From the NCBI RefSeq assembly GCF_000144625.1, contig NC_014376.1, positions 1,922,001-1,986,000 of the forward strand: 64,000 bases of DNA, given 5' to 3'. Made by a program: the position numbers and the translations under genes. Below, in pieces: positions 29,485 through 48,611 of the stretch. Source of the DNA: [Clostridium] saccharolyticum WM1. GTDB taxonomy: Bacteria > Bacillota > Clostridia > Lachnospirales > Lachnospiraceae. The notes below the pieces were generated by a model. The model saw only the letters and a program-made list of their open reading frames with translations, was not told the DNA's origin and searched no databases. The number at the start of each line of letters is the position of its first letter. The stretch's first letter is position 1.

Positions 29485-30657
29485 ATGAAAAAGAAGTTAG
29501 CAATGGTGCTTGCAGCGGCAATGGTATTGTCAGCAACTGCATGCGGCAGCAGCGGCACAGCCGCAACAACAGCAGCTACAGAAGCAAAAACAGAAGCTGC
29601 CAAGACGGATCAGACAACTGCAGCGGAGAAGGTAGAAAAAGCCCAGGCCACAGGCTCTTTGGAAGGAAAGAAGATTGCCGTTGTGCGGAACCTGGCAGCA
29701 GGAGATCATACCCAGCAGTTTTTAGACGGCTGTGTATCCGAAGGAAAGAAGTTTGGCTGGACCGTAGACACCTTTGTAACGGATGGCGATGATGCAAAGG
29801 CTCAGGAGACGGTAGCTCAGGTCATTGCAAAGGATTATCAGGGAATTATCGTATCTCATGGACAGTTGTCTTATTCCTATGATATGTTAAAACCCGCCAG
29901 AGACAAAGGCATGGAAGTTGTTACCTTTGATACCATGCCATTTAAGGGCGGCGATGCAAGCGGCGAGCTTCTTGAAGGGGTAACTTCTACCGCTCAGAAC
30001 GACCAGGCTCTTGCAGAACTTTCTCTTGGCTACATGATGAAGGAATTTGAAGCAAAAGGCGGAAAATACCCGATGAAAGTTTTAAAGACCTTCATGGGCC
30101 CTGGAATCCCTCCGCTGGACAGACGTAATGAAATCTATACCAAGCTGGAAGCAGATGGCAAGATCCAGACTCTGGAAGTAATTGCACCATCTGATTCAGC
30201 CAATGCCCGCGGTGATATGACCAACAAGACAGCTGCTATTCTTCCAAAGTATCCGGAAGGCTCCGTAGATGCCATCTGGGGCTGCTACGATGAGCTGGCT
30301 AAGGGCGTACTTCAGGCATTAAACGATGCAGGACGTACCGATATCCCTATGTACACCATTGACGTATCCAACGATGACATTCAGTTAATGGTTAAGAATC
30401 CTGATGTTTGGAAATCTACCGCAGCCGTTGATCCGAAACTGATCGGTATTGTCGATACCCGCCTTCTGGCTTTGAAGTTTATGGGAGAAGAGACACCGGA
30501 TTACTTTAACTTAAATGCATGCAATATTGAAACAACTCAGCTTACCGCTCAAACCACTATGAACGATTTAGGCAGCATCATTGATGGCTGGGGCGATGCT
30601 GAAGATCCAAAGGGTGCTTTGTTTACCGATGAGATCAAGAACAAATATGTAAATTAA
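29485..30657 (+). CDS. Sugar ABC transporter substrate-binding lipoprotein (RbsB-like)
   Basis: Exported lipoprotein that would bind a pentose-like sugar, 390 residues. The ATG at 29485 follows AAGGAGG and opens a standard signal peptide (KKKLAMVLAAAMVLSATAC) with a lipobox Cys. A low-complexity Ala/Thr/Lys linker follows, then a type-1 periplasmic binding fold: KIAVVRNLAAGDHTQQFLDG, VIAKDYQGIIVSHG, MEVVTFDTMPF and VDAIWGCYDELAKGVLQAL. First gene of the operon feeding the MtnK/MtnA pair, so the ligand is probably 5-deoxyribose, 5-methylthioribose or a similar 5-modified pentose (inference). Confidence 0.9.
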   Translation: MKKKLAMVLAAAMVLSATACGSSGTAATTAATEAKTEAAKTDQTTAAEKVEKAQATGSLEGKKIAVVRNLAAGDHTQQFLDGCVSEGKKFGWTVDTFVTDGDDAKAQETVAQVIAKDYQGIIVSHGQLSYSYDMLKPARDKGMEVVTFDTMPFKGGDASGELLEGVTSTAQNDQALAELSLGYMMKEFEAKGGKYPMKVLKTFMGPGIPPLDRRNEIYTKLEADGKIQTLEVIAPSDSANARGDMTNKTAAILPKYPEGSVDAIWGCYDELAKGVLQALNDAGRTDIPMYTIDVSNDDIQLMVKNPDVWKSTAAVDPKLIGIVDTRLLALKFMGEETPDYFNLNACNIETTQLTAQTTMNDLGSIIDGWGDAEDPKGALFTDEIKNKYVN

Positions 30658-30700
30658 GGAAAATGCTCTGTATTCATTACATAATTAAGGAAGAGATGCC

Positions 30701-32212
30701 ATGACCGAAGTAAAACTTGAAATGAAAGATATATCCATCGAATTTCCTGGAGTTAAGGCTTTGGATGGAGTTGATTTTAGTCTGGAAAGTGGTACGATTC
30801 ATGCGCTCGTGGGTGCGAATGGCGCAGGTAAGTCCACCTTGATGAAAGTACTTGCCGGTGTTAATACGCACTATACAGGACAAATTTACGTTGGAGGGGA
30901 ACCGGTGGAAATCCGGTGCCCCAAAGACGCAAAAAATCTTGGAATAGAAATCGTATTTCAGGAGGTCGACACCGCATTGATCCCCTATCTGTCCGTAGCT
31001 GAGAATGTAATGTTCAACACGCTGGTTAATAAAATGGGGCGGAAACAGGTTGTACACTGGAAAGAAATCAGGCAGGCAGCAGCAGCAGTATTAAAGAAAT
31101 TAAATGTAGATGTGGATATTAATCAACAGGTATCAGGACTTACTCTTGCACAAAAGCAAATGGTTCTCATTGCCAGATGTGTGGCGGAAAAGTGCCGGTT
31201 CCTGATTTTGGATGAGCCGACAGCCCCTCTTTCCAATTCTGAGACATTGGAATTGTTCCGGGTTGTGCGTGAACTTGCAAAAGAGAATGTGGGAGTTGTG
31301 TTTATTTCTCACCGGTTAAGTGAGCTTTACGAGATTTGTGAAAGTATTACCATTATGAGAGACGGCAAACTGGTAACCAATCTGCCGCTTACTAAGGAAC
31401 TGGAAGTGAATACTCTTGTCGAATATATGTTAGGCCGCAGCTATGAGGATAATTACATCAAGAAAAAATGCGAAATCGGCGGGCCATTGCTTGAGATAGA
31501 AAACCTTACCGAAAAGGAAGGGAAAGTTAAAAATATCAATATGACCGTCTGCAAAGGAGAAATTATCGGAGTGGCAGGGCTGGTTGGCGCAGGAAAAACA
31601 GAGCTTTGTAAGACTTTGTTTTCTGCATACCAGCAGGCAGGCGGTACCATGAAGCTCAACGGAAAAGTGATCAAGGCAAAAGGGCCGACCCAGGCTGTGA
31701 AACATGGGCTGGCGCTGGTACCGGAGGAACGGAGAAAAGAAGGCGTTCTGATCACGGACCCGGTGGTGTCCAATATTTCTGTGGCAGCCATGGAGAAGTA
31801 TACGAATTGGCTTTCTGTGGTGAACAAAAAGCGGGAAAAAGAGGATGCAAAAAATATGATACGGGGCCTTGGAATCAAGACTCCATCAGAAAACCAGGTC
31901 GTTGCCCTGCTGTCCGGCGGCAACCAGCAGAAGGTGGTCGTTGGAAAATGGCTGAACAAGGATTCCGAGGTTTATATTTTCGATGAACCTACCAAGGGAA
32001 TCGATGTGGGTGCCAAGCAGGATATGTATGAACTGATTGAAGGCCTGGCAGCCAAGGGAAAGGGTGTTATTTATGCCACCTGCGAATTCCAGGAAATATT
32101 GAGTATCTGCGACCGCATCTATGTAATGTACGACGGAGAGGTCATCAAAGAATTAAACGCAGCGGATACGAACGAAAAAGAACTGCTTTATTATTCGACA
32201 GGAGGTAAATGA
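30701..32212 (+). CDS. Sugar ABC transporter ATPase, RbsA/MglA type
   Basis: Dual-domain ATPase of 503 residues that energises the importer. The first ABC domain has Walker A GANGAGKST near residue 38, a degenerate signature region (VSGLTLAQKQMV) and Walker B LILDEPTAPL. The second has the degenerate Walker A GLVGAGKTE, signature LLSGGNQQKVVVGKWL and VYIFDEPTKGID. This asymmetric pattern is normal for RbsA-type sugar importers. It lies 43 nt after the binding protein and 1 nt before the permease. Confidence 0.94.
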   Translation: MTEVKLEMKDISIEFPGVKALDGVDFSLESGTIHALVGANGAGKSTLMKVLAGVNTHYTGQIYVGGEPVEIRCPKDAKNLGIEIVFQEVDTALIPYLSVAENVMFNTLVNKMGRKQVVHWKEIRQAAAAVLKKLNVDVDINQQVSGLTLAQKQMVLIARCVAEKCRFLILDEPTAPLSNSETLELFRVVRELAKENVGVVFISHRLSELYEICESITIMRDGKLVTNLPLTKELEVNTLVEYMLGRSYEDNYIKKKCEIGGPLLEIENLTEKEGKVKNINMTVCKGEIIGVAGLVGAGKTELCKTLFSAYQQAGGTMKLNGKVIKAKGPTQAVKHGLALVPEERRKEGVLITDPVVSNISVAAMEKYTNWLSVVNKKREKEDAKNMIRGLGIKTPSENQVVALLSGGNQQKVVVGKWLNKDSEVYIFDEPTKGIDVGAKQDMYELIEGLAAKGKGVIYATCEFQEILSICDRIYVMYDGEVIKELNAADTNEKELLYYSTGGK

Positions 32213-32213
32213 T

Positions 32214-33233
32214 ATGTCTGGGGCAGAGAAGGTAAAAAAGAAAAGGAACGTTGGAGATTTTGTGACAAAATGGGGTACCATCGCAACAATGCTCATCATG
32301 TTCATCCTGTTTACATTTGGGAACTGGAGTAAGGATACGGGATCGAGCATGTTTCTGACCCAGTCTAATATGATCACGATTCTTCGTGCGGTATCCATTA
32401 CCACCATCATTGCAATCGGTCTTACGTTTGCCCTGGCGGTAAACGGCATGGATCTTTCCATTGGAGCTACGGCTCAGTTTGCCAATGTTTTTGTTATGAC
32501 ATGCTTTGTGTGGCACAACATCAATATCGGTGTATCCGTCATTCTAACGGTGCTTATTTGTTTAAGCGTTGCAGTCATCAACAGCATTTTGATTGTTAAA
32601 TTCAAAATACCGGATATGGTTGCGGCACTTTCCGTAATGTTTATGTATCAGGGAGTTTCCATGACGTATTCCAAGGGCGGTGCCATCACGGAACGTATGA
32701 CCCGTGCCGATGGGACTCAGGCTCCCGGTCTTGTTCCGGAGGCATTCCGGGCATTGGGGAAGGAACCATGGCTGATCATCATTATGATCTGCGTGGTGCT
32801 GTTCGCATACTTTTTCTTAAATTATACAAAACACGGCAGATACATGTATGCAGTAGGCGGGAATCCTGAGGCGGCCCAGCTTTCCGGAATTCCGGTTGCA
32901 AAGTATAAAATTCTTGCCTATTTTCTGTCAGCTACCTTTGCATCCATTGGCGGAATCTGTCTTGCGGCCCGTGTGGGAACCGCTCAGATTTCAGCGGGCG
33001 ATGCCTATTTAATGCCTTCCGTTTGTGCTGCCTATATCGGATTTTCTGTAATGGGCGCCGGAAAAGCCAATGCGTTCGGTACCTTTGCCGGAGCGGTGTT
33101 AGTGGGTATGCTGGAAAACGGTTTGATTATGATGTCCGTACCATATTATGCAATGAATATCATCAAGGGTGCAGTCCTTGCCATTGCTCTTGCTATGACT
33201 TATGCAAGCGGCAAGACAAAAAATGCAAACTAA
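32214..33233 (+). CDS. Sugar ABC transporter permease, RbsC type
   Basis: Membrane channel subunit, 339 residues with about eight to ten hydrophobic helices. TFALAVNGMDLSIGATAQFANV is the conserved RbsC-family segment, HGRYMYAVGGNPEAAQLSGIPV the cytoplasmic coupling loop and SAGDAYLMPSVCAAYIGFSVMGAGKANAFGTFAGAVLVGML the C-terminal signature region. AGGAGG immediately upstream. It functions with the ATPase and lipoprotein encoded before it. Confidence 0.94.
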   Translation: MSGAEKVKKKRNVGDFVTKWGTIATMLIMFILFTFGNWSKDTGSSMFLTQSNMITILRAVSITTIIAIGLTFALAVNGMDLSIGATAQFANVFVMTCFVWHNINIGVSVILTVLICLSVAVINSILIVKFKIPDMVAALSVMFMYQGVSMTYSKGGAITERMTRADGTQAPGLVPEAFRALGKEPWLIIIMICVVLFAYFFLNYTKHGRYMYAVGGNPEAAQLSGIPVAKYKILAYFLSATFASIGGICLAARVGTAQISAGDAYLMPSVCAAYIGFSVMGAGKANAFGTFAGAVLVGMLENGLIMMSVPYYAMNIIKGAVLAIALAMTYASGKTKNAN

Positions 33234-33272
33234 CCATACATATGTTATATTGAACAGGGGAAGGTGACGGAA

Positions 33273-34496
33273 ATGTCTAAATACGACAGTTATTTTTTGA
33301 TGAAAGCGGAAGAGGTACCGGATTATGTTCAGGAGAAGCTCTCCTATTTTGATAAGGATGCCAGGCTGGAATGCAAGGAGATTGGAGACGGAAACTTAAA
33401 CTATGTATTTCGTGTCAAGGATCCGGCAAGCGGGAAATCCATCATCGTAAAGCAGGCTGGAGAAGCACTTCGTATTTCAGCAGAAATGCATGTTTCCACT
33501 GACCGGGGAAGAATTGAAGCTAAGATCCTGGGAATTCAGGATTCTTATGCGCCTGGGCTTGTTCCGAAGGTTTATCTGTATGACGGAACCATGTGTGCCA
33601 TGGCTATGGAGGATATGACCGGCCATACCATGATGCGTACCGGACTGTTAAAACATGAGATTTATCCCAGGTTCGCAGATCATGTAACCACTTTTATGGT
33701 TAATTCCCTTCTGCGCACAACGGATGTTGTCATGGGGCATAAGGAGAAGAAAGAGCTGGTTAAAAGCTTTATCAATCCGGATTTGTGTGAGATATCAGAG
33801 GACCTGGTGTACAGCGAGCCATTTATTGATTACAACCACAGGAACAATGTATTTCCACCCAATGCAGAATTTGTAAAAAAGGAATTGTACGAGGACCAGG
33901 CCCTTCATCTGGAAGCTGCCAAGCTGAAATTCGAGTTTATGAACAATGCACAGTCTCTGATCCACGGGGATTTGCATACAGGCTCTGTGTTTATCAACAA
34001 GGAGCATACTTATATTTTTGATCCGGAATTCGCTTTCTACGGACCTATGGGCTATGATATCGGCAATGTCATTGCAAACATGTTTTTTGCATGGTGCAAC
34101 GGTGATGCAACCATAGAAGATGAGAAGGAAAAAGAAGAATTTTGCGGCTGGTGCTTAAATACGATTTCCGACATTGTGGACTTGTTCATTGAAAAATATA
34201 ATAAAGTTTTTGATGAACATGTCACGGAAACCATGGCAAAGGTCCCGGGATTTAAAGAATGGTATCTGGAAGGCATTCTTTCCGATACTGCGGGAGTGGC
34301 AGGACTTGAATCCATCCGCCGGACCGTGGGAATGGCCAACGTTATTGATATTACCACGATTCCCGATGCGGAAAAACGGGCGAGAGCGGAAAAAATTGTC
34401 ATTACTCTGGCGAAGAATTATATTATGAACCGCCGTAGTTTCCGGTGCGGAGCAGATTATTTAAAGGCTGTAAAAGAGGCAACAGGCAAGTTTTGA
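33273..34496 (+). CDS. mtnK: MtnK-family kinase, 5-methylthioribose or 5-deoxyribose 1-kinase
   Basis: ATP-dependent kinase of 407 residues with the aminoglycoside/choline-kinase fold, phosphorylating C1 of a 5-modified ribose. The ATG at 33273 (GGGGAAGG upstream) is chosen over the GTG at 33264. EIGDGNLNYVFRV is the nucleotide loop, SIIVKQAGEALRIS the ATP-site Lys, LIHGDLHTGSVF the catalytic loop and FDPEFAFYGPMGYDIGNV the metal site, all characteristic of MtnK. The same family supplies DrdK of the 5-deoxyribose disposal pathway. Coupled with an MtnA-type isomerase next door and a sugar importer before it. FGGY sugar kinases are absent, arguing against fucose or rhamnose. Confidence 0.9.
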   Translation: MSKYDSYFLMKAEEVPDYVQEKLSYFDKDARLECKEIGDGNLNYVFRVKDPASGKSIIVKQAGEALRISAEMHVSTDRGRIEAKILGIQDSYAPGLVPKVYLYDGTMCAMAMEDMTGHTMMRTGLLKHEIYPRFADHVTTFMVNSLLRTTDVVMGHKEKKELVKSFINPDLCEISEDLVYSEPFIDYNHRNNVFPPNAEFVKKELYEDQALHLEAAKLKFEFMNNAQSLIHGDLHTGSVFINKEHTYIFDPEFAFYGPMGYDIGNVIANMFFAWCNGDATIEDEKEKEEFCGWCLNTISDIVDLFIEKYNKVFDEHVTETMAKVPGFKEWYLEGILSDTAGVAGLESIRRTVGMANVIDITTIPDAEKRARAEKIVITLAKNYIMNRRSFRCGADYLKAVKEATGKF

Positions 34497-34541
34497 GGCC
34501 GGCAACAGGATTGAAAGCCGGTAAACAAGAAAGGGATAAAC

Positions 34542-35648
34542 ATGAGCGAAGAAACAAAAAAATCCATCATGGACTATGATACCGTGGCACTTGATGAGGA
34601 GAACAACGCCCTGGTAATCATAGACCAGACACAGCTTCCGTATCATACGGAAATTCTTTCCCTGACAAAACAGAAGGATATCTGGAATGCAATCTATCTT
34701 CTTCAGGTAAGAGGGGCACCTGCCATCGGTGTGGCAGCCGCCATCGGTATCTATCTGGCTGCAAGGGAGATCCAGGCAGATGGTTTTGATGAATTTTATA
34801 CAAAATTTCAAAAGGCAAAGGACTATCTGGATTCCGCCCGTCCTACAGCAGTTAATTTATCGTGGGCTTTAAAACGGATGGAGCAGGTGGTTTTAAAAAA
34901 CAAGGATAAAACGGTTTCTGAGATCGTAGAACTTCTCCATAAAGAAGCAATCGAGATCAGGGAAGAGGATATCTGGGTCTGCAGGATGATAGGAGAATAT
35001 GGCTTGTCTCTTGTAAAGCCGGGAGACGGTCTGCTGACTCACTGCAATGCCGGACAGCTGGCAACTGTAAAGTACGGAACGGCAACCGCTCCCATGTATT
35101 TAGGTCACGAAAAAGGCTATGGCTTCCGCATTTTTTCCGATGAGACCAGACCCCTTCTTCAAGGGGCGCGGCTGACTTCTTTCGAATTAAAGGAATCAGG
35201 CCTTGATGTCACAGTGATCTGTGACAATATGTCGGCTACCGTCATGAGAAACGGCTGGGTGGATGCTGTATTTGTAGGCTGTGACCGGGTAGCGGCCAAT
35301 GGGGATACGGCAAACAAAATCGGGACCTCCATGGTGGCCCTGGCAGCTAAGCGCTATGGAGTGCCCATGTATATCTGTGCCCCCACCTCCACCATTGATA
35401 TGAGCACCCCTACGGGCAAGGAGATCCACATTGAGGAGCGTCCTGCTGAGGAAGTGGTTGAAATGTGGTATAAAAAGCGGATGGCACCGGAAGGGGTAAA
35501 GGTATTTAATCCTGCGTTTGATGTGACGGACAATGATCTGATCGCAGGAATCGTGACGGAGTACGGGATCGCCAAAGCACCTTACACAGAATCATTAAAA
35601 GAAATATTCAGAAAAAAGGAAGAGGCCCTGAAAGCTAAGGAAATGTAA
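34542..35648 (+). CDS. mtnA: MtnA-family aldose-1-phosphate isomerase (methylthioribose/deoxyribose 1-P)
   Basis: Converts the 1-phospho-aldose made by the kinase into the corresponding ketose 1-phosphate; 368 residues. LLQVRGAPAIGVAAAIG is the phosphate-binding segment, LLTHCNAGQLATVKYGTATAP carries the catalytic Cys of the family and GCDRVAANGDTANKIGT the catalytic Asp. CAPTSTIDMSTPTGKEIHIEER is the closing signature of the eIF2B-like family. Sequence cannot separate 5-methylthioribulose-1-P from 5-deoxyribulose-1-P isomerase (DrdI). The aldolase rather than MtnB-type dehydratase in the next operon favours a cleavage (DHAP shunt) route. Confidence 0.92.
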   Translation: MSEETKKSIMDYDTVALDEENNALVIIDQTQLPYHTEILSLTKQKDIWNAIYLLQVRGAPAIGVAAAIGIYLAAREIQADGFDEFYTKFQKAKDYLDSARPTAVNLSWALKRMEQVVLKNKDKTVSEIVELLHKEAIEIREEDIWVCRMIGEYGLSLVKPGDGLLTHCNAGQLATVKYGTATAPMYLGHEKGYGFRIFSDETRPLLQGARLTSFELKESGLDVTVICDNMSATVMRNGWVDAVFVGCDRVAANGDTANKIGTSMVALAAKRYGVPMYICAPTSTIDMSTPTGKEIHIEERPAEEVVEMWYKKRMAPEGVKVFNPAFDVTDNDLIAGIVTEYGIAKAPYTESLKEIFRKKEEALKAKEM

Positions 35649-35804: not shown

Positions 35805-36578
35805 CTATGCTTCCGTTGCTTCGTAAAGCTCTACATCATTTTTGGAAAGGTATTCTCTCCACTGTTCGTCCATTCGTTTGTCAGTGACCAGACCCGTGAT
35901 GGTTTCAAAGCCTGATATCCGTATGAATGAGGTCTTATCGAATTTGGAGTGGTCTGCAATTAAGTAAACGTGATTGCTCCTGGTCATCAGTATCTGGCGT
36001 ATAGCGGCAATGGCTTCATTGGAATCGGTGATCCCGTGCTCCATGGAAACGCTCCGGCAGGACATAAAGGTTTTGTCCAGGTAAAAGGATTCCAAATTCT
36101 TAAGGGCTGTATTGCCTACAAAAGCCTTGTCCCGGGGGGTATAGGAGCCTCCGATGGAAATCAGGCGGATATCCTCTTTGTCATACAGCTCATTGATGAT
36201 CAGGAGGGAATTTGTTACCACAGTGAGACGCATTCCCTGTAAGGTCTTAGCCAGTTGAAGGGCCGTGGTAGAGGCATCCAGGAAAATTGAGTCCCCGTTG
36301 TGTATGATTGACAGGCACTTCTTTGCGATGGACTGCTTGCTTTCCATATATGCGGTTTCCCGGATTGTTAAATCTACGTTATTCTCAACCCCGTCTTGTA
36401 TGAATGCACCGCCGTATGTTCTGGTCAGGAACCCGTCATCTTCCAATTGCTTTAAATCCCGCCGGATGGTTTCTTCGGTCACGGAGAAAATTTTGGAAAG
36501 TTCGGTCACTGTTACGCTTTTCTTTTCTAAAATAATATCTTTGATCTTGGCCTTCCTCGTTACTGCTAACATAGGCAT
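35805..36578 (-). CDS. DeoR-family transcriptional repressor
   Basis: Sugar-phosphate-responsive repressor, 257 residues. The N-terminal helix-turn-helix is KKSVTVTELSKIFSVTEETIRRDLKQLEDDGFLTRTYGGA, typical DeoR. The effector domain (ISIIHNGDSIFLDASTTALQLAKTL, VVTNSLLIINEL, YLIADHSKFDKTSF) is the phosphosugar-binding part. The second ATG (36572) is equally plausible as start, since it gives better spacing from AAAGGA. It lies between the uptake/kinase operon and the divergent aldolase/BMC operon; both promoters carry similar phased repeats, so it probably controls both, with a ketose-1-P or related compound as inducer (inference). Confidence 0.92.
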   Translation of the reverse strand: MPMLAVTRKAKIKDIILEKKSVTVTELSKIFSVTEETIRRDLKQLEDDGFLTRTYGGAFIQDGVENNVDLTIRETAYMESKQSIAKKCLSIIHNGDSIFLDASTTALQLAKTLQGMRLTVVTNSLLIINELYDKEDIRLISIGGSYTPRDKAFVGNTALKNLESFYLDKTFMSCRSVSMEHGITDSNEAIAAIRQILMTRSNHVYLIADHSKFDKTSFIRISGFETITGLVTDKRMDEQWREYLSKNDVELYEATEA

Positions 36579-36710: not shown

Positions 36711-36768
36711 ATAAAACGGTATAAACGGAAATAAAACAACATAAAACATTGACAAACAAACATAAAAG
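36711..36768. repeat. 10-bp-phased ATAAAAC direct repeats (putative DeoR operator array)
   Basis: ATAAA(A)C begins at 36711, 36721, 36731 and 36741, exactly 10 bp apart. A degenerate ACAAAC lies at 36752 and ATAAAAG at 36762. The array overlaps the TTGACA -35 box at 36749, so a bound repressor would block RNA polymerase. Confidence 0.65.
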
Positions 36769-40587: not shown

Positions 40588-40622
40588 AAAGAACAGGAAA
40601 TTGTCTAGGTTGGAGGCTTTCA

Positions 40623-41279
40623 ATGGAAAACAGGGAAGAACTGATTCAAAAGGTAACCTCACTGGTCGTGGAAAACTGGACGAGGCTGAGCACACAGCCT
40701 TATCAGGTTCCTGTAGGAATCTCAGCAAGGCATGTTCACCTGTCCAAGGAACATGTGGAAATGCTTTTTGGAACCGGTTACCGGCTGACTCCTATTAAGG
40801 CTTTAAGCCAGCCGGGGCAGTTTGCCTGTGAAGAGCAGGTAGCTGTCTGCGGCCGTTTGGGAACACTTCCCAGGGTAAGGATCCTTGGACCGGAAAGAAA
40901 ACAAAGTCAGGTGGAAATGGCCTTCAGTGACTGCAGGGGGCTGGGAATACAGCCCCAGGTGAGGTCGTCAGGAGATTTAAAGGGAACGCCGGGAATCCTG
41001 CTGAAGGGACCAAAGGGAGAAGTACTGCTGACAGAGGGTGTCATTATAGCAGACCGCCATATTCATATGACGCCGGAAGATTCCCTTTGGTTTGGGGTAT
41101 CGGATCAGGACCGGGTAAGCGTTGCGGTCAATGGACCAAAGGGCGGCGTGCTGGACCAGGTACTGATACGTGTCACCCAGGAGAGCAGGCTGGATTTTCA
41201 TTTGGACACGGATGACGCAAATGCATTCCAGCTAAAACAAGGACAGTGGGTAACCATCAGAAAGGAAGTGGCCCGATGA
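40623..41279 (+). CDS. pduL: Phosphotransacylase PduL
   Basis: Exchanges CoA for phosphate on the acyl-CoA, giving acyl-phosphate (ATP source) and recycling CoA inside the shell; 218 residues. The two half-barrels carry the zinc-ligand motifs SARHVHLS and ADRHIHMT. RILGPERKQSQVE and GPKGGVLDQVLIRV are further family blocks. The first ~20 residues (ENREELIQKVTSLVVENW) form an amphipathic helix that looks like an encapsulation peptide. The stop overlaps the vertex-protein start (ATGA). Confidence 0.95.
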   Translation: MENREELIQKVTSLVVENWTRLSTQPYQVPVGISARHVHLSKEHVEMLFGTGYRLTPIKALSQPGQFACEEQVAVCGRLGTLPRVRILGPERKQSQVEMAFSDCRGLGIQPQVRSSGDLKGTPGILLKGPKGEVLLTEGVIIADRHIHMTPEDSLWFGVSDQDRVSVAVNGPKGGVLDQVLIRVTQESRLDFHLDTDDANAFQLKQGQWVTIRKEVAR

Positions 41280-41536
41280 TATTAGGTACAATTATGGGAA
41301 CTGTGGTTTCCACGAGAAAATGCAGAAATCTGGTTGGGTTTAAGCTCCTTTTGGTCGAACCCTATTATGGGGATAAGAAGGATATTTTTGTGGCCGCCGA
41401 TACCATAGGTGCAGGAATCGGGGAACTGGTACTGGTAACCACGGATAATACCACCCAATATGCACTGGACCGTTCGGCGCCTGTGGATGCCTACATTGTA
41501 GGCATTGTTGACGCGCCGCCTCAGCCGGGAAGGTAA
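41276..41536 (+). CDS. eutN: BMC-P pentameric vertex protein (EutN/CcmL family)
   Basis: 86-residue protein that would cap shell vertices as a pentamer. MILGTIMGTVVSTRKCRNLVGFKLLLVEP and FVAADTIGAGIGELVLVTTDNTTQYAL are typical EutN/CcmL segments, ending in DAYIVGIVD. The ATG at 41276 overlaps the pduL stop by 4 nt, giving the usual family length; the upstream GTG would add an unneeded extension. It is the only BMC-P gene in the window. Confidence 0.95.
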   Translation: MILGTIMGTVVSTRKCRNLVGFKLLLVEPYYGDKKDIFVAADTIGAGIGELVLVTTDNTTQYALDRSAPVDAYIVGIVDAPPQPGR

Positions 41537-41554
41537 AAAGGAGAGGGAAAGTTT

Positions 41555-42673
41555 ATGGAACGGGAAACTCTTAAGGTTTTGGCAGTGGCAGACCCGGCTG
41601 TGGAGGGTTATCTGGATGAAGAGCTGGGTATTTTAGAGGGATATGGAGGAAATGTGGATTTCCATATCGTGCCCTGGGCAGATTACTACCCCATGATGAT
41701 GAGAGCATTTGCCGGGGAAGAGGATTACGACATTGTTATGGTTGCAGGCCATTTATGGCTTCGTGACTTTGTTGAACAGGGATTCCTTTCAGAGCTTGAG
41801 CTTGAGGAAGAAGATATTCTTCCGGTCATTGCAGAGGAAATGAGGTATAAGGGCAAGGCGTATTTATCCCCCTCCTTCTGTGACGGCCATATGATTGTTT
41901 ACCGCAGGAGCCAGCTTTGTCAGGCATTGGGAAGGGAGCTTGAAAGCGTTATCACTCCCCGGGAATACATAGAGGCAGCAAAGGCATGCAAAACTGCTTT
42001 AGGAAAGCAGGCCGTGGCCATGAAGGCTGACCGGTCAGAAATCTTTACCGATGCGCTTCCCTTCCTGCGTATGTATGGAGGAGATGCTTATGATCCTCAC
42101 GGAACAGCATCCTGTGGAAAGGAAGAAGCTGTAAAGGGACTAAAATCCTACATGGAACTGAAAGCTTATGCAGTGGATGGCACGGAATTCTTCGGAAACG
42201 GGGAAATTGCGGCAGCGATCCGGGAAAAGGGAGCGGCCATGGCGGTTACTTGGAGCGGCCAGATGGGTGAGGTTTTCAAGGAAGGCTGCCTGGAACGGCC
42301 GGATCTGGGATTTTCCACCTTTTCTACTGCCTGGAATGTAACCTGGTCTTTTGGGATCTGTAAAAGCTCCGGAAAAAAGGAAGAGGCTGAAGCATTTCTT
42401 AAGTACTTAAGGTCCCCTTTGGTGGATCAAAAGGTGGGAAGAAAAAGCGGTGCTCCCATTCGGAGCGGCAGCTATATGGAAGGGGCCGGGGACTGCCCCT
42501 GGTTTCCGGTACAGCAAAAGATGATAGAGCTTGCAAGGCCTCTTCCTCATTTGTCAAAGGCAGGGGAGAAAAACGGTGTTCTATATGAGAAAATCTTCGA
42601 GGCCTTTTCCGGAAAAAAGACGGCTGAGGAAGCCATGCGGGAAGCAGGACAAGAGATTGACTGTGTAAAATGA
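41555..42673 (+). CDS. Cytoplasmic extracellular-solute-binding-like protein in the BMC operon
   Basis: 372 residues resembling a type-2 sugar/oligosaccharide binding protein: DYDIVMVAGHLWLRDFVEQGFLSEL, YKGKAYLSPSFCDGHMIVYRR, GAAMAVTWSGQMGEVF and KKEEAEAFLKYLRSPLVDQ are characteristic. There is no signal peptide; the N terminus begins ETLKVLAVADP, so it should stay in the cytosol or shell. No ABC permease of this type is adjacent. Its place between the vertex protein and the flavoprotein suggests a binding, sensing or scaffold role for a pathway metabolite. Function unknown. Confidence 0.75.
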   Translation: MERETLKVLAVADPAVEGYLDEELGILEGYGGNVDFHIVPWADYYPMMMRAFAGEEDYDIVMVAGHLWLRDFVEQGFLSELELEEEDILPVIAEEMRYKGKAYLSPSFCDGHMIVYRRSQLCQALGRELESVITPREYIEAAKACKTALGKQAVAMKADRSEIFTDALPFLRMYGGDAYDPHGTASCGKEEAVKGLKSYMELKAYAVDGTEFFGNGEIAAAIREKGAAMAVTWSGQMGEVFKEGCLERPDLGFSTFSTAWNVTWSFGICKSSGKKEEAEAFLKYLRSPLVDQKVGRKSGAPIRSGSYMEGAGDCPWFPVQQKMIELARPLPHLSKAGEKNGVLYEKIFEAFSGKKTAEEAMREAGQEIDCVK

Positions 42674-42686
42674 TCAGGGAGAAAAC

Positions 42687-44024
42687 ATGAAAATTATTAT
42701 AATTGGAGGAGTGGCGGCAGGAATGAGTGCCGCTTCCAAGATCCGCAGGATGGACCCGAATATGGAAGTGACGGTCTATGAAAAGGGAGGTTTTCTTTCT
42801 TATGGAGCGTGCGGCCTTCCCTACTATGTGGGAGATTATAACGATGATTACCGTAAAATGATCGCCCGCTCCCGGGAGACCTTTACCAAAATGGGAATAA
42901 AGACCTTTCTCCGTCATCAGGTATTGTCTGTTGATGCAGATAGGAAAGAGGTCCTTGTAAGGAATCTTGAAAATGGTCAGGAATGGAAAGACAGGTATGA
43001 CAAACTGATGATAGCCACTGGGGCATCGTCTGTAGTTCCGCCCTTTCCCGGCCGGGAGCTTTTAGGTGTCCATGTGCTGAAATCCATGGAAGACGGTATT
43101 TTTTTAAAGGAATATGCAAAAATGCCGGAGATCCAAAATGTTGTCATCGTTGGAGGAGGATACATTGGAGTCGAATGTGCGGAAGCGTTTTTAAGCCTTG
43201 GAAAAAAGGTCCGTATCCTGGAAGCGGCTCCCAGAATCCTGACGCCTTTTGATGAGGAAATTACAGCCCTGGCCCAGGAAGAACTGGTAAGGTGCGGAAT
43301 AGAACTCAATCTTGGGGAAAAGGTAGAAGGTTTTTATGGAGACGGTCTTTATGTGAAGCGTGTAAAAACGGACAGAGGAACCTATGAAGCAGATCTGGTA
43401 ATTGTTGCGGTAGGAGTCCGCCCCTGTACGGAATTTTTGAAAGATACGGGGATCTCCATGGCAAAAAACGGAGCACTGATCGTGGACAGGGAAATGAAAA
43501 CCTCATTGCCGGATGTGTATGCGGCAGGAGACTGTATCCTTGTCCATCATGAGGTTTTAGAAGAAGACAGCTTCCTTGCTTTGGGAACGGTGGCTAACAA
43601 ATGCGGAAGAATTGCAGGAACCAACCTGGCAGGCGGCCATGAGCAGTTCCTGGGTGCCCTGGGGTCGGCGGCGATTAAGGTTTGCGGGCTGGAACTAGGG
43701 CGCACAGGCATGGGAGAAGGGGATGCCAAACGCCTTCAAAAGGATTACAAGACCCTGATTGTACAGGCCAACGATCATCCGGCTTATTACCCGGATCCAA
43801 CCCCCATCACCATTAAGCTGATTTATGAAAAAGGAACAAAAAGGCTGCTGGGTGCACAGACCTGCGGGCAAAAAGGAGCAGTTTTGCGGGCCGACGTGTT
43901 TGCAGTTGCAATCCATTGCAGAATGACAACGGCGGAGCTGGGAATGACGGATCTTATTTATGCGCCTCCTTTTTCCGGCGTGTGGGATGCGATCCAGATT
44001 GCCTGCAATGCGGCAAAAGGCTGA
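42687..44024 (+). CDS. CoA-disulfide reductase / NADH oxidase-like flavoprotein
   Basis: FAD- and NAD(P)H-dependent oxidoreductase of 445 residues. IIIGGVAAGMSAASKIRR is the FAD site and SYGACGLPYYVGD carries the single redox Cys42 of the CoADR/Nox group. VVIVGGGYIGVECAEAF binds NAD(P)H, VYAAGDC is the second FAD motif and a dimerisation domain closes the chain. No rhodanese domain is fused. In this locus it could keep CoA reduced, or reoxidise NADH to balance the aldehyde dehydrogenase; which one is not decided by sequence. Confidence 0.9.
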   Translation: MKIIIIGGVAAGMSAASKIRRMDPNMEVTVYEKGGFLSYGACGLPYYVGDYNDDYRKMIARSRETFTKMGIKTFLRHQVLSVDADRKEVLVRNLENGQEWKDRYDKLMIATGASSVVPPFPGRELLGVHVLKSMEDGIFLKEYAKMPEIQNVVIVGGGYIGVECAEAFLSLGKKVRILEAAPRILTPFDEEITALAQEELVRCGIELNLGEKVEGFYGDGLYVKRVKTDRGTYEADLVIVAVGVRPCTEFLKDTGISMAKNGALIVDREMKTSLPDVYAAGDCILVHHEVLEEDSFLALGTVANKCGRIAGTNLAGGHEQFLGALGSAAIKVCGLELGRTGMGEGDAKRLQKDYKTLIVQANDHPAYYPDPTPITIKLIYEKGTKRLLGAQTCGQKGAVLRADVFAVAIHCRMTTAELGMTDLIYAPPFSGVWDAIQIACNAAKG

Positions 44025-44069
44025 TGAAAGGCAAACGGCGGAGTGAAGGATAGAAAGTGAGGTCAGACC

Positions 44070-44882
44070 ATGAGCAAAGTCATATCTTTGCAGGAGGCGG
44101 CATCCCGGATCCAGGATGGGGATATTCTGGGCCTTGGGGGCAATGTGCTTCATCGGGCGCCCATGGCAATGGTACGGGAACTGGTGCGTCAGAAGAAAAG
44201 AAATCTAAAGCTGGTAAAGACCGCAGGAGCCATGGATGTGGATCTGCTGTGCTTTGGCGGCTGCGTTACCAGCGTTGATGCCGGCTTTATCAGCTATGAA
44301 AGCGAATATTCCCTGGCAGGCCATTACCGCCGGGCGGTTGAAAGCGGGGCTGTAAAAGGGAATGAACATGCCTGCTATACGGTGATATCCGCCCTCCGTG
44401 CCGCCAGCTACGGGGTAGGTTTCATGCCTGTAAAAGGGCTTGTGATCAGCGATCTGATTGATGCAAATGACTATTTTATTCGGGTCGAGGATCCCTTTAC
44501 CAAGGAACCGGTTACTGTGGTAAGGGCCATAAGGCCGGACGTTGCGGTCCTCCATGTCCAGGAGGCGGATGAGGATGGAAATGCAAGGATCACAGGACCT
44601 TTGTTTGAAGATGTCCTGTTTTCCAGAGCAGCCAAAAGAGTCATCCTGACAACGGAAAATATCGTCCATGGATCCGTATTTAAGGGCAGCCAGAAAAAGG
44701 CAGACATACCCCGGTTTCTGGTGGAAGCGGTGGTCAAGGTTCCCAAGGGGGCTTCTCCCTGCTCTTGCCCGGGCTTGTATGACATTGACGGAAAGAATTT
44801 AAAGGAATTTAAAGGCTTAAAAGATATGGATGGCCTTTATGCCTATTTAAAGGCATTTGAAAAATCCGACTATAAAGGATAA
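44070..44882 (+). CDS. CoA-transferase family I, subunit A (GctA/IpdA-like)
   Basis: 270-residue subunit of a glutaconate-CoA-transferase-type enzyme. The N terminus has the family GDILGLGGN-type oxyanion segment (IQDGDILGLGGNVLHRAPMAMV). DEDGNARITGPLFEDVLFSRAAKRVILTTE and a C-terminal SCPGLYDIDGKNL are typical of subunit A. It pairs with the gene 11 nt downstream. Within the BMC operon it might move CoA between acyl groups or act as a hydrolase; see the note on subunit B. Confidence 0.88.
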   Translation: MSKVISLQEAASRIQDGDILGLGGNVLHRAPMAMVRELVRQKKRNLKLVKTAGAMDVDLLCFGGCVTSVDAGFISYESEYSLAGHYRRAVESGAVKGNEHACYTVISALRAASYGVGFMPVKGLVISDLIDANDYFIRVEDPFTKEPVTVVRAIRPDVAVLHVQEADEDGNARITGPLFEDVLFSRAAKRVILTTENIVHGSVFKGSQKKADIPRFLVEAVVKVPKGASPCSCPGLYDIDGKNLKEFKGLKDMDGLYAYLKAFEKSDYKG

Positions 44883-44893
44883 GGGGGCATGGC

Positions 44894-45619
44894 ATGATGG
44901 AAGAAAAATACAGAGTCTGCGATATTATGGTCTGCGCCATGGCCCGCTTCATACCTGACGGCAGCAAGGTGTTTCACGGGGTTTCTTCCCATATGCCCAT
45001 GATAGCCCTTCTGCTGGCAAAGGCACTTCATGCGCCGGGAGCCGTGCATCTGAACATACCTGGAGGAACAGATCCGGAACCAATAAGGCTTAAGAAGTAT
45101 ACCAGCGCAGGTCCCGAGCTTATGGAACGGGCTACCGCTTATTTCCCGCTCATGGAGGTTTTTGACCTGGCCATGAGAGGGGATCTGGATGTGGCATTTT
45201 TAAGCGGCATCCAGTTTGATTTCCATGGCAATGTCAATGCATCAGTCATCGGAGATTATAAAAAACCAAAGGTAAGGATGCCGGGAGGGGCAGGCAGCGC
45301 CGTACTCATTCCAACCGCAAAAAGGGCTATACTCTGGAGGACAAAGCATGATAAGCGCACCTTTGTCAACCAGGTGGATTTTGTAACGACCAGGGGAAAC
45401 GTGGACCGGATCGTTACACCCTTGTGCATCTTTAAAATGGAAAACGGGGAAATGGTACTGGAAACCATCCATCCCACTTCCAGCTTAGAAGAGGTGAAGG
45501 AAAATACCGGATTTCCTATAAAATGCTCCCATGTCGCCTATACGCCACTTCCTACCAGGGAAGAACTGAGTGCACTGAAACGGATCGATCCGGGAGATTT
45601 CAGAAATATAGAATTCTAA
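44894..45619 (+). CDS. CoA-transferase family I, subunit B, apparently lacking the catalytic Glu
   Basis: 241-residue partner of the preceding subunit. VFHGVSSHMPMIALLLAKALHAP and SGIQFDFHGNVNASVIGDYKKPKVRMPGGAG are GctB-family blocks, and HPTSSLEEVKENTGFPI matches the C-terminal part. Where GctB has the catalytic Glu in a VESG motif, this protein reads LNIPGG, so Ile55 aligns with the Glu. Without that Glu the usual covalent CoA-thioester mechanism is unlikely, as in IpdAB-type hydrolase relatives. It may therefore be a CoA-dependent lyase or hydrolase rather than a transferase. Confidence 0.85.
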   Translation: MMEEKYRVCDIMVCAMARFIPDGSKVFHGVSSHMPMIALLLAKALHAPGAVHLNIPGGTDPEPIRLKKYTSAGPELMERATAYFPLMEVFDLAMRGDLDVAFLSGIQFDFHGNVNASVIGDYKKPKVRMPGGAGSAVLIPTAKRAILWRTKHDKRTFVNQVDFVTTRGNVDRIVTPLCIFKMENGEMVLETIHPTSSLEEVKENTGFPIKCSHVAYTPLPTREELSALKRIDPGDFRNIEF

Positions 45620-45630
45620 GGAGGCCAGTT

Positions 45631-46797
45631 ATGGCGCTTGAAAGGATCAATGCAGTAGGAACCAGCTTTTTTGGCCGCGGCTCCATGGGACTGCTGCCGG
45701 ATGAGCTTAAGAAACGGGGATTTAAGCGGGGACTTATTGTTACAGACCCGTTTCTGTATGAAAATGGTACCGGAGATAACGTAGGAGCCTGCCTTTTAAA
45801 GGCCGGGGTGGAATATGCCATTTATTATCTGGTTGAACCGAATCCTTCCACAACCATTGTCAATGACTGCCTGAATGCGGCATTGGCACTGGAAGTGGAC
45901 CTGCTGGTGGCCGTGGGTGGAGGCTCGGCCATTGATACGGCAAAGGCAGTCAGCATTGTCATGGCAAACGGCGGCAAGGTAGAGGATTATGAGGGAGTGA
46001 ACCGTTCCCGCAAACCGGGGATTCCCATTGTGGCAGTGAACACTACCGCAGGGACCGGCTCCGAAGTTACGGCATTTTATATTGTGACTGACCCGGCGAG
46101 GCATTCCAAGATGTGTATGGTGGACCCTAACGCTATGGTCACCATTGCAGTCAATGATGTGGACCTGATGATGACCATGCCAAAGGGCCTTACGGCTTCT
46201 ACAGGAATGGATGCCATGACTCACGCCGTTGAAGCGGCTGTGGCAAAGAGAGCTACACCATTTACAGATAAAGATGCTCTCTGGGCTATGGGAGTGATCC
46301 GGACCTATCTGCCGGAAGCGGTGGCAGACGGCAGCAAAGAAAAGGCCAGGGAGATGATGGCTTATGGGGAATACAGCGCAGGAATGGCTTTCTCCAATGC
46401 AGGGCTTGGCATGGTCCATGCCATGGCACATTCCCTGGGCGGCCGCAATAATCTGCCTCATGGCATCTGCAATGCGGTTTTGCTGCCCTTTGTTATGGAA
46501 TTTAACGGAAGCAGGCCGGAGACCGCAGTGCGGTATAAAAAGGTGGCAGAGGGACTTCGGCTTCCAGGGGCGGCTGCCATGACAGGGGAACAGGCGGTAA
46601 AGGAATCAGTAGCATGTATCAGGCGGTTGTCTAAGGAAGTTGGTATCACACAGAGTTTGCAGGATCTTAAGGTGAATCCTGAGGATTTTAAGGCTTTGGC
46701 AGAGGTTGCGCTGTGTGATTCCTGTATGGAAGATAATCCCTTCCGGCCTACGCTCCAACAGGTAATAGAGGTATATCGGAACGCCTATGGAAAATAG
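45631..46797 (+). CDS. Iron-containing alcohol dehydrogenase
   Basis: Group III alcohol dehydrogenase of 388 residues, reducing the pathway aldehyde to an alcohol and regenerating NAD. The ATG at 45631 (AAGGAGG) is used; the frame upstream overlaps the CoA-transferase gene. LVAVGGGSAIDTAKAV binds the nucleotide, TTAGTGSEVTAF is the family motif, GMDAMTHAVEA and GMVHAMAHSLGGRNNLPHGICNA supply the Fe ligands. In BMC loci such enzymes make ethanol or propanol as the fermentative branch. No obvious encapsulation peptide is seen. Confidence 0.95.
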   Translation: MALERINAVGTSFFGRGSMGLLPDELKKRGFKRGLIVTDPFLYENGTGDNVGACLLKAGVEYAIYYLVEPNPSTTIVNDCLNAALALEVDLLVAVGGGSAIDTAKAVSIVMANGGKVEDYEGVNRSRKPGIPIVAVNTTAGTGSEVTAFYIVTDPARHSKMCMVDPNAMVTIAVNDVDLMMTMPKGLTASTGMDAMTHAVEAAVAKRATPFTDKDALWAMGVIRTYLPEAVADGSKEKAREMMAYGEYSAGMAFSNAGLGMVHAMAHSLGGRNNLPHGICNAVLLPFVMEFNGSRPETAVRYKKVAEGLRLPGAAAMTGEQAVKESVACIRRLSKEVGITQSLQDLKVNPEDFKALAEVALCDSCMEDNPFRPTLQQVIEVYRNAYGK

Positions 46798-46893
46798 GCT
46801 GGCCTATGTAGCTAATTTTAGTAACACAGGATACGCATGAAAAGTTTCTGTATGGCTCAATGGCAATAAATTGCGGGAAGGAGAGGGAAATAA

Positions 46894-47907
46894 ATGAAAA
46901 AACTGATTAATGTACCGGAAAACTATGTAAATGAGATGCTGGAGGGGATCTATCTTGCCCATCCGGATCACGTCACTTATACCGCAGGCGATTTACGCTG
47001 TCTGGTCACCTCCAATAAGGTGGAGGGAAAGGTGGGAATCGCAACCGGAGGAGGTTCTGGACATCTTCCTCTGTTTTTAGGCTATGTGGGAAAGGGAATG
47101 TTGGATGGCTGCTCTGTTGGAGATGTCTTCCAGTCTCCAAGCGCAGAGCAGATGCTGCATGTGACCAAGAGTATTGATTCCGGAGCAGGCGTTCTTTATA
47201 TATACGGCAATTATAACGGGGATATCTTTAATTTTGACATGGCTGCAGAGATGGCGGATATGGAAGAGGGAATCCAGGTGGAAAGCGTCGTAGCGGGGGA
47301 AGACGTGGCATCTCCCAAGGCGGCGCCAGGAGAGAAGAATACCAGAAGAGGAGTGGCTGGCATCTTTTTTGTATATAAATGCGCAGGCGCGGCAGCTGCG
47401 GCAGGGAAGGATCTGCAGGAAGTAAAACGGATAGCAGAGAAGGCAGCCGCCAGTGTCAGAACCATGGGTGTTGCCCTGACGCCATGTACTGTGCCGAGAG
47501 TGGGTCATCCCGGGTTTGAAATCGGAGAGGATGAAATGGAAATCGGTATGGGAATCCATGGGGAGCCTGGAATCCGCCGGGGGAACATTGAGACTGCAGA
47601 TGAGATCACATCAGAAATGATGGAAAAGATCCTTGAGGACATCCCATTTGCTGCTGGAGATGAGGTTGCAGTCCTTGTAAACGGACTGGGGGCAACTCCT
47701 CTTGATGAACAGTATATTGTGGCCAGAAAGGTCAATCAGATTCTGGAAGAAAAGGGGATCATGGTTCACCGCTATTATGTAGGGGAATATGTGACTTCCA
47801 TTGAGATGGCGGGCTTATCCATTTCTCTTTTAAAAATGGATGAGGAACTGAAGGGTTACCTGGATGCTCCCGCTGATACGCCGTTCTTTAAACAGGGAAC
47901 TATCTAA
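46894..47907 (+). CDS. dhaK: Dihydroxyacetone kinase subunit DhaK-like
   Basis: 337-residue DhaK-type subunit that binds a short ketose covalently as a hemiaminal. GIATGGGSGHLPLFLGYVGKGMLDG is the conserved substrate region, and the substrate-binding His sits in EIGMGIHGEPGIRR. GVAGIFFVYKCAGAAAAAG is also typical. Paired with a DhaL-type gene 24-86 nt downstream. No DhaM phosphoryl donor is encoded in the window, so phosphate must come from a distant PTS protein or from ATP. It might recover dihydroxyacetone or a related ketose from side reactions. Its membership of the BMC operon is inferred from the absence of a terminator in the 96-nt gap. Confidence 0.9.
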   Translation: MKKLINVPENYVNEMLEGIYLAHPDHVTYTAGDLRCLVTSNKVEGKVGIATGGGSGHLPLFLGYVGKGMLDGCSVGDVFQSPSAEQMLHVTKSIDSGAGVLYIYGNYNGDIFNFDMAAEMADMEEGIQVESVVAGEDVASPKAAPGEKNTRRGVAGIFFVYKCAGAAAAAGKDLQEVKRIAEKAAASVRTMGVALTPCTVPRVGHPGFEIGEDEMEIGMGIHGEPGIRRGNIETADEITSEMMEKILEDIPFAAGDEVAVLVNGLGATPLDEQYIVARKVNQILEEKGIMVHRYYVGEYVTSIEMAGLSISLLKMDEELKGYLDAPADTPFFKQGTI

Positions 47908-47993
47908 AAAAATGCTGCAGGAAATGGAAAGTGGCGGATATTGTATGTCATGATTATATATGCCGCCGGAGCAGCGGCAGAATGGAGGCTGAT

Positions 47994-48611
47994 ATGAACC
48001 AGCAGGAACTGATAGCCATGCTTGAAAGAATAAGTAAAATCATGGAGCAAAACCGGAACTACTTAATTGAGCTGGACAGTGTTGTAGGAGACAGTGATCT
48101 GGGGCTGACCATGGCGGATGGATTCGGAGCAGCCTATGAATCGGTTTCCGATGGGGCGGAACCAGATCTGGGCAAGCTTTTGTACAAAGCCGGAAAAACC
48201 ATGGGAAATAAGGTTCCTTCCACCATGGGGACATTAATGGCGGCAGGGCTGATGCGTGCCGGAAAAGTCTTAAAAGGAAAGACGGATTTGTCCTGTGCAG
48301 ATGTTGCCGGACTGTTTGAAGCTTATGAAGCCGGTGTTGCAGATCTGGGTAAGGCGAAATTAGGAGATAAAACCTTTTTGGACGGATTTCATCCCGGAGT
48401 GCAGACTCTTAAGGCTGAATTGGAAGCAGGAGTCTCCCTTAGGGAAGCTTTTGGCAAGGCTGCTGAAGCTGCCTGGGAAGGCTTTGAACAAACAACAACT
48501 CTCATAGCCGTTCATGGAAGAGCGGCTACCAGGGGGGAAGCTTCCCGGTCCTTAAAGGATCCGGGAGCCGCTGTGGCAGCGCTGATTATGAAGGCTGTTG
48601 CTGACCAGTAA
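47994..48611 (+). CDS. dhaL: Dihydroxyacetone kinase subunit DhaL-like
   Basis: 205-residue ADP/ATP-binding subunit. The ATG at 47994 follows GGAGG (47984-); the longer frame upstream has no site. LDSVVGDSDLGLTMADGF holds the three Asp that bind Mg-nucleotide; the usual GDGDxG is here GDSDLG. KAGKTMGNKVPSTMGTLMAAGL is the phosphate loop and LIAVHGRAATRGEASRSLKDPGA the C-terminal signature. Works with the DhaK-like protein upstream. Ends at a strong terminator that closes the whole locus. Confidence 0.9.
   Translation: MNQQELIAMLERISKIMEQNRNYLIELDSVVGDSDLGLTMADGFGAAYESVSDGAEPDLGKLLYKAGKTMGNKVPSTMGTLMAAGLMRAGKVLKGKTDLSCADVAGLFEAYEAGVADLGKAKLGDKTFLDGFHPGVQTLKAELEAGVSLREAFGKAAEAAWEGFEQTTTLIAVHGRAATRGEASRSLKDPGAAVAALIMKAVADQ

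Follow-up and report, generated by a model that had tools for sequence, protein, structure and literature searches.

The locus described here raises the question of whether a fermenting bacterium may import the waste sugars of S-adenosylmethionine (SAM) chemistry, 5-deoxyribose and 5-methylthioribose, and break them down inside a bacterial microcompartment (BMC). It lies in a stretch of 64,000 nucleotides (the window; positions 1,922,001 to 1,986,000 of contig NC_014376.1) of [Clostridium] saccharolyticum WM1, whose genome is a single contig of 4.66 Mb. Two operons are concerned, one encoding a sugar importer, an MtnK-type kinase and an MtnA-type isomerase, and the other a class II aldolase and a BMC. 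On the evidence of genomes, we predict that together they probably specify a PVM-like metabolosome with a dihydroxyacetone phosphate (DHAP) shunt as its front end. The label PVM-like is our own and was given from gene content.

The first operon runs on the + strand from 29485 to 35648. Family-profile searches assigned its first three genes (29485–33233) to an RbsABC-type importer, with an RbsB/AlsB-like sugar-binding protein (29485–30657; PF13407), an RbsA/AraG-like ATPase (30701–32212) and an RbsC-like permease (32214–33233). The MtnK/DrdK-type 5-methylthioribose/5-deoxyribose kinase (33264–34496) scores 415.8 bits against TIGR01767 (cut-off 275) and 263 bits against methylthioribose kinase 2olc. 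The MtnA-type 5-substituted ribose-1-phosphate isomerase (34542–35648) scores 411.7 bits against TIGR00512 (cut-off 279) and 340 bits against 2yrf/2yvk. Both assignments are at the equivalog level, and the front end matches the characterized DHAP shunt.

The second operon, also on the + strand (36845–48611), opens with the signature enzyme of the locus, the class II aldolase (36845–37798; PF00596, 168.4 bits). Its likely start is 36845, with GGAGG seven bases before it, rather than 36791 of the longer open reading frame. A CoA-acylating aldehyde dehydrogenase (AldDH; 37809–39230; PRK15398, 653.8 bits, cut-off 403) follows, and then a shell set of four single-domain BMC genes and one BMC-P gene. 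The four comprise two BMC-H proteins (39591–39872 and 40288–40587; PF00936, 106.2 and 105.6 bits) and two BMC-domain proteins with starts read from the sequence (39247–39585 and 39928–40287; PF00936, 50.2 and 59.1 bits). The PduL phosphotransacylase (40623–41279; PF06130, 249.5 bits; PRK15070, 266.6 bits, cut-off 209) precedes the BMC-P (EutN/CcmL) vertex protein (41276–41536; PF03319, 85.3 bits; start read from the sequence). Further downstream is an iron-type, lactaldehyde-reductase-like alcohol dehydrogenase (Fe-ADH; 45631–46797; start read from the sequence), 42% identical to E. coli FucO and scoring 401 bits against TIGR02638, below the cut-off of 523. The metabolosome core is complete in the locus, with AldDH, a PduL-type phosphotransacylase, an alcohol dehydrogenase, BMC-H and BMC-P. 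The importer, MtnK, MtnA, aldolase, AldDH, BMC, PduL and Fe-ADH genes named in an initial annotation of this DNA were all found in their places by the family searches.

In the proposed pathway, whose logic would follow that of the characterized homologues, the importer would take up a ribose with a modified 5-position; 5-deoxyribose is the likeliest candidate and 5-methylthioribose a possible one. In the cytosol, MtnK would phosphorylate C1 and MtnA would isomerize the product to 5-deoxy- (or 5-methylthio-) ribulose 1-phosphate. This ketose 1-phosphate would enter the shell and be cleaved there to DHAP and acetaldehyde (or methylthioacetaldehyde) by the class II aldolase, which its C-terminal helix would anchor. 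AldDH and PduL would convert one share of the aldehyde to an acyl phosphate usable for ATP, and Fe-ADH would reduce the remainder, so that NAD and CoA are recycled. The genes present, their conservation, the surroundings of the aldolase subfamily and the build of the tail are observed; the substrates, the division between cytosol and lumen, the regulation and the energy yield are what we infer from the genes.

The locus is real and conserved. One scan of other genomes with the aldolase gave 19 loci, of which seven (L001, L002, L003, L010, L011, L014 and L018) keep the layout of importer, MtnK, MtnA and DeoR-family regulator followed by aldolase, AldDH, shell and PduL. An eighth locus, L065, keeps it from MtnK onward, where its contig begins, the importer being outside the view. 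The chassis thus stands behind MtnK-MtnA in nine genomes, that of the window included, and all eight same-chassis loci of other genomes have the DeoR-family regulator. The nearest locus is L001 of Lacrimispora celerecrescens, with tblastn segments 64–98% identical, most of them above 85%; the matching locus L003 is from [Clostridium] aerotolerans. Such recurrence of gene order exceeds chance, and it supports the view that the importer-MtnK-MtnA and BMC operons belong together.

The kinase was also found next to this aldolase in wider samples. Among 200 genomes of the family, with MtnK scored against the model cut-off, nine had MtnK. In five of these (G000, G043, G183, G099 and G173) it lies at most 3.5 kb from an aldolase 61–100% identical to that of the window, and all of the five except G173 have shell genes in the locus. 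Of the remaining four, G194 has MtnK next to an aldolase of DrdA type, G103 has only a 48% identical aldolase about 23 kb away, and no aldolase was found in the fetched stretch around MtnK in G040 and G107. A class sample of 391 genomes (E ≤ 1e-50 for the aldolase, E ≤ 1e-40 for MtnK) had the aldolase in 87 genomes and MtnK in 21 (18 over the cut-off). Aldolase and MtnK are adjacent in all five class genomes with both (G000, G353, G418, G458 and G578). These five are among the eight class genomes whose aldolase is at least 63% identical, and MtnK occurs in none of the 79 with at most 59%. Four of the five are from one genus, and those four are without a BMC domain.

Neighbors of the aldolase were counted in 28 genomes that have an aldolase at least 59% identical and a fetched neighborhood. 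MtnA is the neighbor in 18, an FGGY kinase with a ketose 3-epimerase in six (L004–L009, with only the kinase end in view in L008) and a galactitol-type phosphotransferase system (PTS) with its own enzyme I (EI) in two (L012 and L015); none was assigned in two (L013 and L062). Five of the eight fetched neighborhoods below 59% have FucI, RhaA/RhaB or a glycyl radical enzyme (L016, L017, L066, L072 and L083), L064 has MtnA about 8 kb away, and L067 and L073 have neither kind. The glycyl radical enzyme probe was the L022 enzyme, its identity confirmed afterwards, and in L005, L008 and L009 the FGGY kinase, the epimerase and the second aldolase were labeled by tblastn with the genes of L007 as queries. 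The counts leave out as duplicates L028–L031 (the same as the window, L065, L010 and L015), L063 (L015), and L032–L039, L041 and L043 (L058–L062, L064, L066, L073, L067 and L072). They also leave out the other family-scan loci of about 3.6 kb, G365, G418 and G458 (aldolases at least 63% identical), L019 (29%), and DrdA-like and second aldolases (L020, L023, L024 and L068).

A different arrangement is seen in G099, where the importer, MtnK, MtnA, DeoR, a RuBisCO-like protein, a tailed aldolase (67% identical) and PduL are in one cluster (L061:1508-15001), together with an RnfC-like protein, a two-BMC-domain protein, a BMC-H and three BMC-P genes. Neither AldDH probe matches in this cluster, and an EutB-EutC-AldDH BMC locus of the same genome (L085) ends about 5 kb upstream. 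Ethanolamine (EUT) BMCs process acetaldehyde, and because one of them adjoins, this single locus hints at acetaldehyde as the product and hence at 5-deoxyribose as the sugar.

The relationships of the aldolase place it in a subfamily of its own. In a tree of 42 aldolases, the subfamily of the window (24 rows) separates from the fucose/rhamnose aldolases (10 rows) at 88/83, a division that requires a single change of label in 100% of 200 bootstrap trees. The aldolase is sister to PVM/GRM5-type aldolases, and DrdA, Ald2 and FucA lie far outside its subfamily. The label GRM5-like was given to L040, L045, L048, L050 and L055 only by a nearby AldDH and to L067 by AldDH and shell matches, and the long branches L020, L064, L059, L076 and L060 are of unsure placement. 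Rows from MtnK/MtnA-BMC loci need four changes, three of them forced by the starred branches, and therefore front ends have been exchanged or lost; the label for MtnA without BMC is unclustered (500 of 500 shuffles as low). Glu84, His103, His105 and His166 are invariant in the aldolase alignment, and the histidines are presumably metal ligands. The acid/base of DrdA is Glu76 (PMC6079011).

In the structure model of the aldolase (mean pLDDT 69.9, pTM 0.61) the catalytic domain extends to about residue 233 and is followed by an unstructured linker (residues 234–298, pLDDT < 50) and a final helix (residues 295–316); its best structural matches are FucA (4c24, 4c25) and DrdA (6btd). Shell genes lie beside 18 of the 28 aldolases, and all 18 have the C-terminal helix, 13 of them in a first alignment and all in a further comparison. 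The helix is absent from L058, L059, L060, L062 and L082 (L084 is excluded from the comparison). The modeled helix supports encapsulation of the aldolase without proving it. A helical-moment test for an encapsulation peptide (EP) did not discriminate, because the C-termini of MtnK (0.67) and MtnA (0.56) rival the aldolase tail (0.60).

The DeoR-family regulator, encoded on the - strand between the operons (35805–36578; PF08220, PF00455), may control both of them. An operator-like sequence in the DeoR-aldolase intergenic region (36731–36747, + strand) is resembled by one upstream of the importer operon (29313–29329, + strand). Since the 17-base pattern was composed from both promoters, the two sites are found by construction and only its scarcity elsewhere is informative. 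With at most one mismatch it has three matches in 4.66 Mb, two of which are these sites, and its backwards-read control has one. Promoter similarity is high in comparison with shuffles in the window, L001, L002 and L003 (1, 0, 2 and 1 of 500 as high). The initial annotation joined both operons in one pathway, which agrees with the layout kept in nine genomes, whereas shared promoter sequence is seen only in the Lacrimispora group (four genomes).

Comparison with known systems shows what is shared and what differs. The DHAP shunts of Bacillus thuringiensis (DrdK-DrdI-DrdA) and E. coli ATCC 25922 (MtnK-MtnA-Ald2) are alike in having a kinase, an isomerase and a class II aldolase, here also expected to yield DHAP and an aldehyde, and in a nearby transporter and DeoR-type regulator. 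The locus differs by its distant aldolase, which belongs to neither the DrdA nor the Ald2 clade, by the C-terminal tail and by the BMC operon with AldDH, PduL and ADH. The universal methionine salvage pathway has an MtnB-type dehydratase after MtnA; here AldDH, PduL and ADH follow MtnA in its place, and the aldolase scores 85.6 bits against TIGR03328 (cut-off 137).

PVM-like BMC loci, as described in the surveys (Axen 2014; Sutter 2021), share with the locus shell genes accompanied by a class II aldolase and AldDH, and mostly DeoR. They differ from it in the importer-MtnK-MtnA, DhaKL, CoA-transferase and CoA-disulfide-reductase-type genes; among the PVM-like loci of the 2014 set just one contained the core alcohol dehydrogenase, and Fe-ADH is present here. 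PVM/GRM5 fucose/rhamnose BMCs likewise supply AldDH from a related class II aldolase inside a shell, and the window has none of the FucI (L016), RhaB (L017) or glycyl radical enzyme (L066) genes that those compared carry. In SPU BMCs, too, a sugar-phosphate aldolase provides triose phosphate and acetaldehyde for AldDH, but it is a DeoC-type aldolase that acts with RpiB on 2-deoxyribose phosphate (PMC8217296), where the locus would have a class II enzyme act on a ketose 1-phosphate. An MtnK gene beside a BMC cluster of Acetobacterium woodii was called unrelated to BMC function (PMC7593272). Other background was drawn from PMC12632272, PMC6302742 and PMC6620236. The link between the organelle and the DHAP shunt is new with respect to the open-licence literature searched, the shunt and PVM-like BMCs being already known separately. 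Among the matches listed, no open-licence paper was found that joins BMCs to the DHAP shunt, with mention in supplements possible, and none that names a microcompartment and mtnK together, supplements being outside the scope.

Several observations weigh against our reading. With about 30% identity to DrdA and to FucA alike, the aldolase sequence does not name its substrate; it failed as a substrate test also in that E. coli Ald2 groups with FucA in the tree. Nor is the aldolase tied to one sugar, because relatives 71–75% identical stand on the same chassis behind ketose-epimerase/FGGY-kinase front ends and others, 61–64% identical, behind PTS front ends. AldDH did not help to specify the aldehyde, its best solved relatives (5jfl, 4c3s) showing no specificity for acetaldehyde, and Fe-ADH has no match in view in L011. 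EP-like tails are found in L079, L080 and L081, from genomes without a PF00936 match (G353, G578 and G290), and in L015 without a shell match in view; because of these, a tail was rejected as proof of a shell. Promoter similarity is not high in L010, L011 and L018 (211, 93 and 44 of 500 shuffles as high), and in the window and in L003 the stretch of best similarity lies elsewhere than at the 17-base site. If DHAP is what the pathway yields already, no function suggests itself for DhaK and DhaL. Finally, the genome has a second, unencapsulated MtnK-MtnA(DrdI-like)-DrdA-like operon at 3.88 Mb (L020, 3873000–3892000; genes at 6346–10816 on the - strand and 11150–13107 on the + strand), with a Na+/H+-antiporter-family permease, DeoR and Fe-ADH, whose aldolase has 6btd as its best PDB match (194 bits). 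The cell would therefore have an unencapsulated and, on our reading, an encapsulated shunt. The initial annotation, which had proposed an encapsulated 5-deoxyribose or methylthioribose shunt, is partly supported: the front end matches the characterized shunt, the aldolase subfamily is mostly linked to MtnA, and the tail makes the aldolase resemble shell cargo. It is tempered by the other front ends that close aldolases serve, by the second operon, by the tails in shell-less genomes and by the restriction of promoter sharing to the Lacrimispora group.

Within our reading, 5-methylthioribose rather than 5-deoxyribose may be the main substrate, the shell confining methylthioacetaldehyde and the CoA-transferase and CoA-disulfide-reductase-type genes handling the sulfur products. 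MtnA fits the methylthioribose-1-phosphate isomerase model much better than the second copy in the genome (411.7 vs 203.5 bits), and the RuBisCO-like protein of L061 matches MtnW (207 bits, below the cut-off of 409). We nevertheless regard this version as rather unlikely, given that the G099 cluster adjoins the EUT locus, that no sulfur-specific enzyme was recognized among the annotated genes of the locus, and that characterized kinases and shunts take both sugars (PMC6079011, PMC10986504). MtnN, which exceeds its cut-off in eight of the 10 MtnK/MtnA-BMC genomes and lies far from the locus in the source genome, could supply both sugars internally.

Ribose or some other 5-hydroxy pentose is an improbable substrate; it would pass by way of ribose 1-phosphate and ribulose 1-phosphate to DHAP and glycolaldehyde, and then to glycolyl phosphate and ethylene glycol. 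The importer is RbsABC-like, the aldolase scores 85.8 bits against the ribulose-1-phosphate aldolase model, far below the cut-off of 300, and the MtnK-MtnA operon of L071 holds a ribokinase-like kinase. Set against this are the equivalog-level matches of kinase and isomerase to MtnK and MtnA, and the specificity of DrdK, which is reported to act on 5-deoxyribose and methylthioribose with undetectable activity on ribose, fucose and others (PMC6079011).

Still less probable is a fucose/rhamnose metabolosome with MtnK and MtnA as incidental neighbors. The surveys presume a fucose- or rhamnose-like substrate for PVM-like loci, which have a class II aldolase and mostly DeoR and which this locus resembles (PMC4207490, PMC8217296, PMC8156839), and the aldolase is sister to those of PVM/GRM5 type. 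RhaA is present in five, and a PF02952 protein over the cut-off in seven, of the 10 MtnK/MtnA-BMC genomes, the source genome included. G011, G014 and G018 (genome completeness not given), however, have neither family, and the linkage to MtnK/MtnA recurs. In the source genome RhaB-RhaA-RhaD form a separate operon at 1.088–1.092 Mb, with RhaD 47% identical to that of E. coli, and the PF02952 region has no FucI match. Searches of the 64 kb by tblastn (E ≤ 1e-4) gave no match to E. coli FucI, FucK, RhaA or RhaB, to one FGGY kinase or to one glycyl radical enzyme, which bears out the absence of FGGY kinase, FucI and RhaA noted in the initial annotation.

Least probable of all is that the two operons are independent neighbors, the BMC taking another ketose 1-phosphate as the same chassis seems to do behind FGGY/epimerase and PTS front ends, since all nine same-chassis genomes keep them adjacent and G099 shows the pairing separately, no FGGY kinase of the L007 kind was found in the window, and MtnA is the commonest neighbor of the aldolase subfamily, also where there is no shell.

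Further genes of the locus, and related loci elsewhere, deserve mention. Besides DeoR, the genes that go beyond the initial annotation are, all on the + strand, a solute-binding-protein-like protein (41555–42673; PF01547; 5ysb Lin1841, 42.6 bits), a CoA-disulfide reductase/NADH oxidase-type flavoprotein (CoADR; 42687–44024; PRK09564, 560.9 bits, cut-off 458), and subunits A (44070–44882; PF01144; 5mzw, 138 bits) and B (44894–45619; PF01144) of a CoA-transferase of the glutaconate family. DhaK-type (46894–47907; PF02733; dhaK1, 394 bits, below the cut-off of 406) and DhaL-type (47994–48611; PF02734; start read from the sequence) kinase subunits close the operon on the same strand. The solute-binding domain is of extracellular type and, by eye, seemingly without a signal peptide. 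Accessory genes vary: CoADR and the CoA-transferase pair (42687–45619) are common to most MtnKA versions of the locus, CoADR is also in L013, DhaK is in view in L001, L002, L003, L010 and L011, and L018 has no CoADR, CoA-transferase or DhaK in view. DhaKL recurs with MtnKA, as in an importer-MtnK-MtnA-DhaK-DhaL-ribokinase-like operon of G107 (L071:5203-13917), where the 19 kb fetched gave no match to a class II aldolase.

On the same aldolase-BMC chassis, loci L004–L009, L023 and L024 have an importer (not in view in L008), a D-psicose-3-epimerase-like protein, an FGGY kinase and another class II aldolase that has no tail, with a fructose-type PTS and EI upstream in L006. The galactitol-type PTS with its own EI accompanies the aldolase in L012 (3864–8839), together with HPr, and in L015, which has no AldDH or shell match nearby though its aldolase is tailed. 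The tailed aldolases of L079 (7193–7990) and L080 (8603–9400) belong to MtnK-MtnA-aldolase operons. In L081 an EutN/CcmL-domain protein (10350–11039) lies directly upstream of MtnA-aldolase; it was rejected as a link to a shell, G290 having no BMC hexamers. A PF03319 match lies about 1.5 kb from the aldolase of G365. The source genome has two other BMC loci, of ethanolamine type (EutB, EutC) and choline type (CutC, 1692 bits). Upstream in the window (22666–29003) are a PTS EIIBC, a lyase, a GH4 glycosidase, an amidohydrolase and a HAD phosphatase, perhaps a separate sugar operon; Rfam and tRNA searches of the window gave no matches.

What the locus may mean in wider terms is a proposition to which we give an even chance. 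Fermenting Clostridia would have a dedicated 5-deoxyribose organelle, importing a radical-SAM waste sugar and growing on it, with the shell coupling aldol cleavage to aldehyde dismutation. A second lineage (G099) would reach the same end by means of MtnK-MtnA-aldolase beside an ethanolamine microcompartment, and PVM-like BMCs would be metabolosomes for ketose 1-phosphates, their sugar front ends being interchangeable. E. coli with the unencapsulated shunt grew on 5-deoxyribose by aerobic or trimethylamine N-oxide respiration and not by fermentation or nitrate respiration (PMC10986504). If the proposition is true, there would be growth by fermentation where that shunt failed, a possible way for fermenters to use 5-deoxyribose, and SAM-derived waste sugars would be linked to an organelle. 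A testable function would thereby be given to some loci of a BMC type that gut Firmicutes are known to have. The loci also suggest a general rule, in which one aldolase-shell chassis is served by interchangeable front ends, all of them delivering a ketose 1-phosphate.

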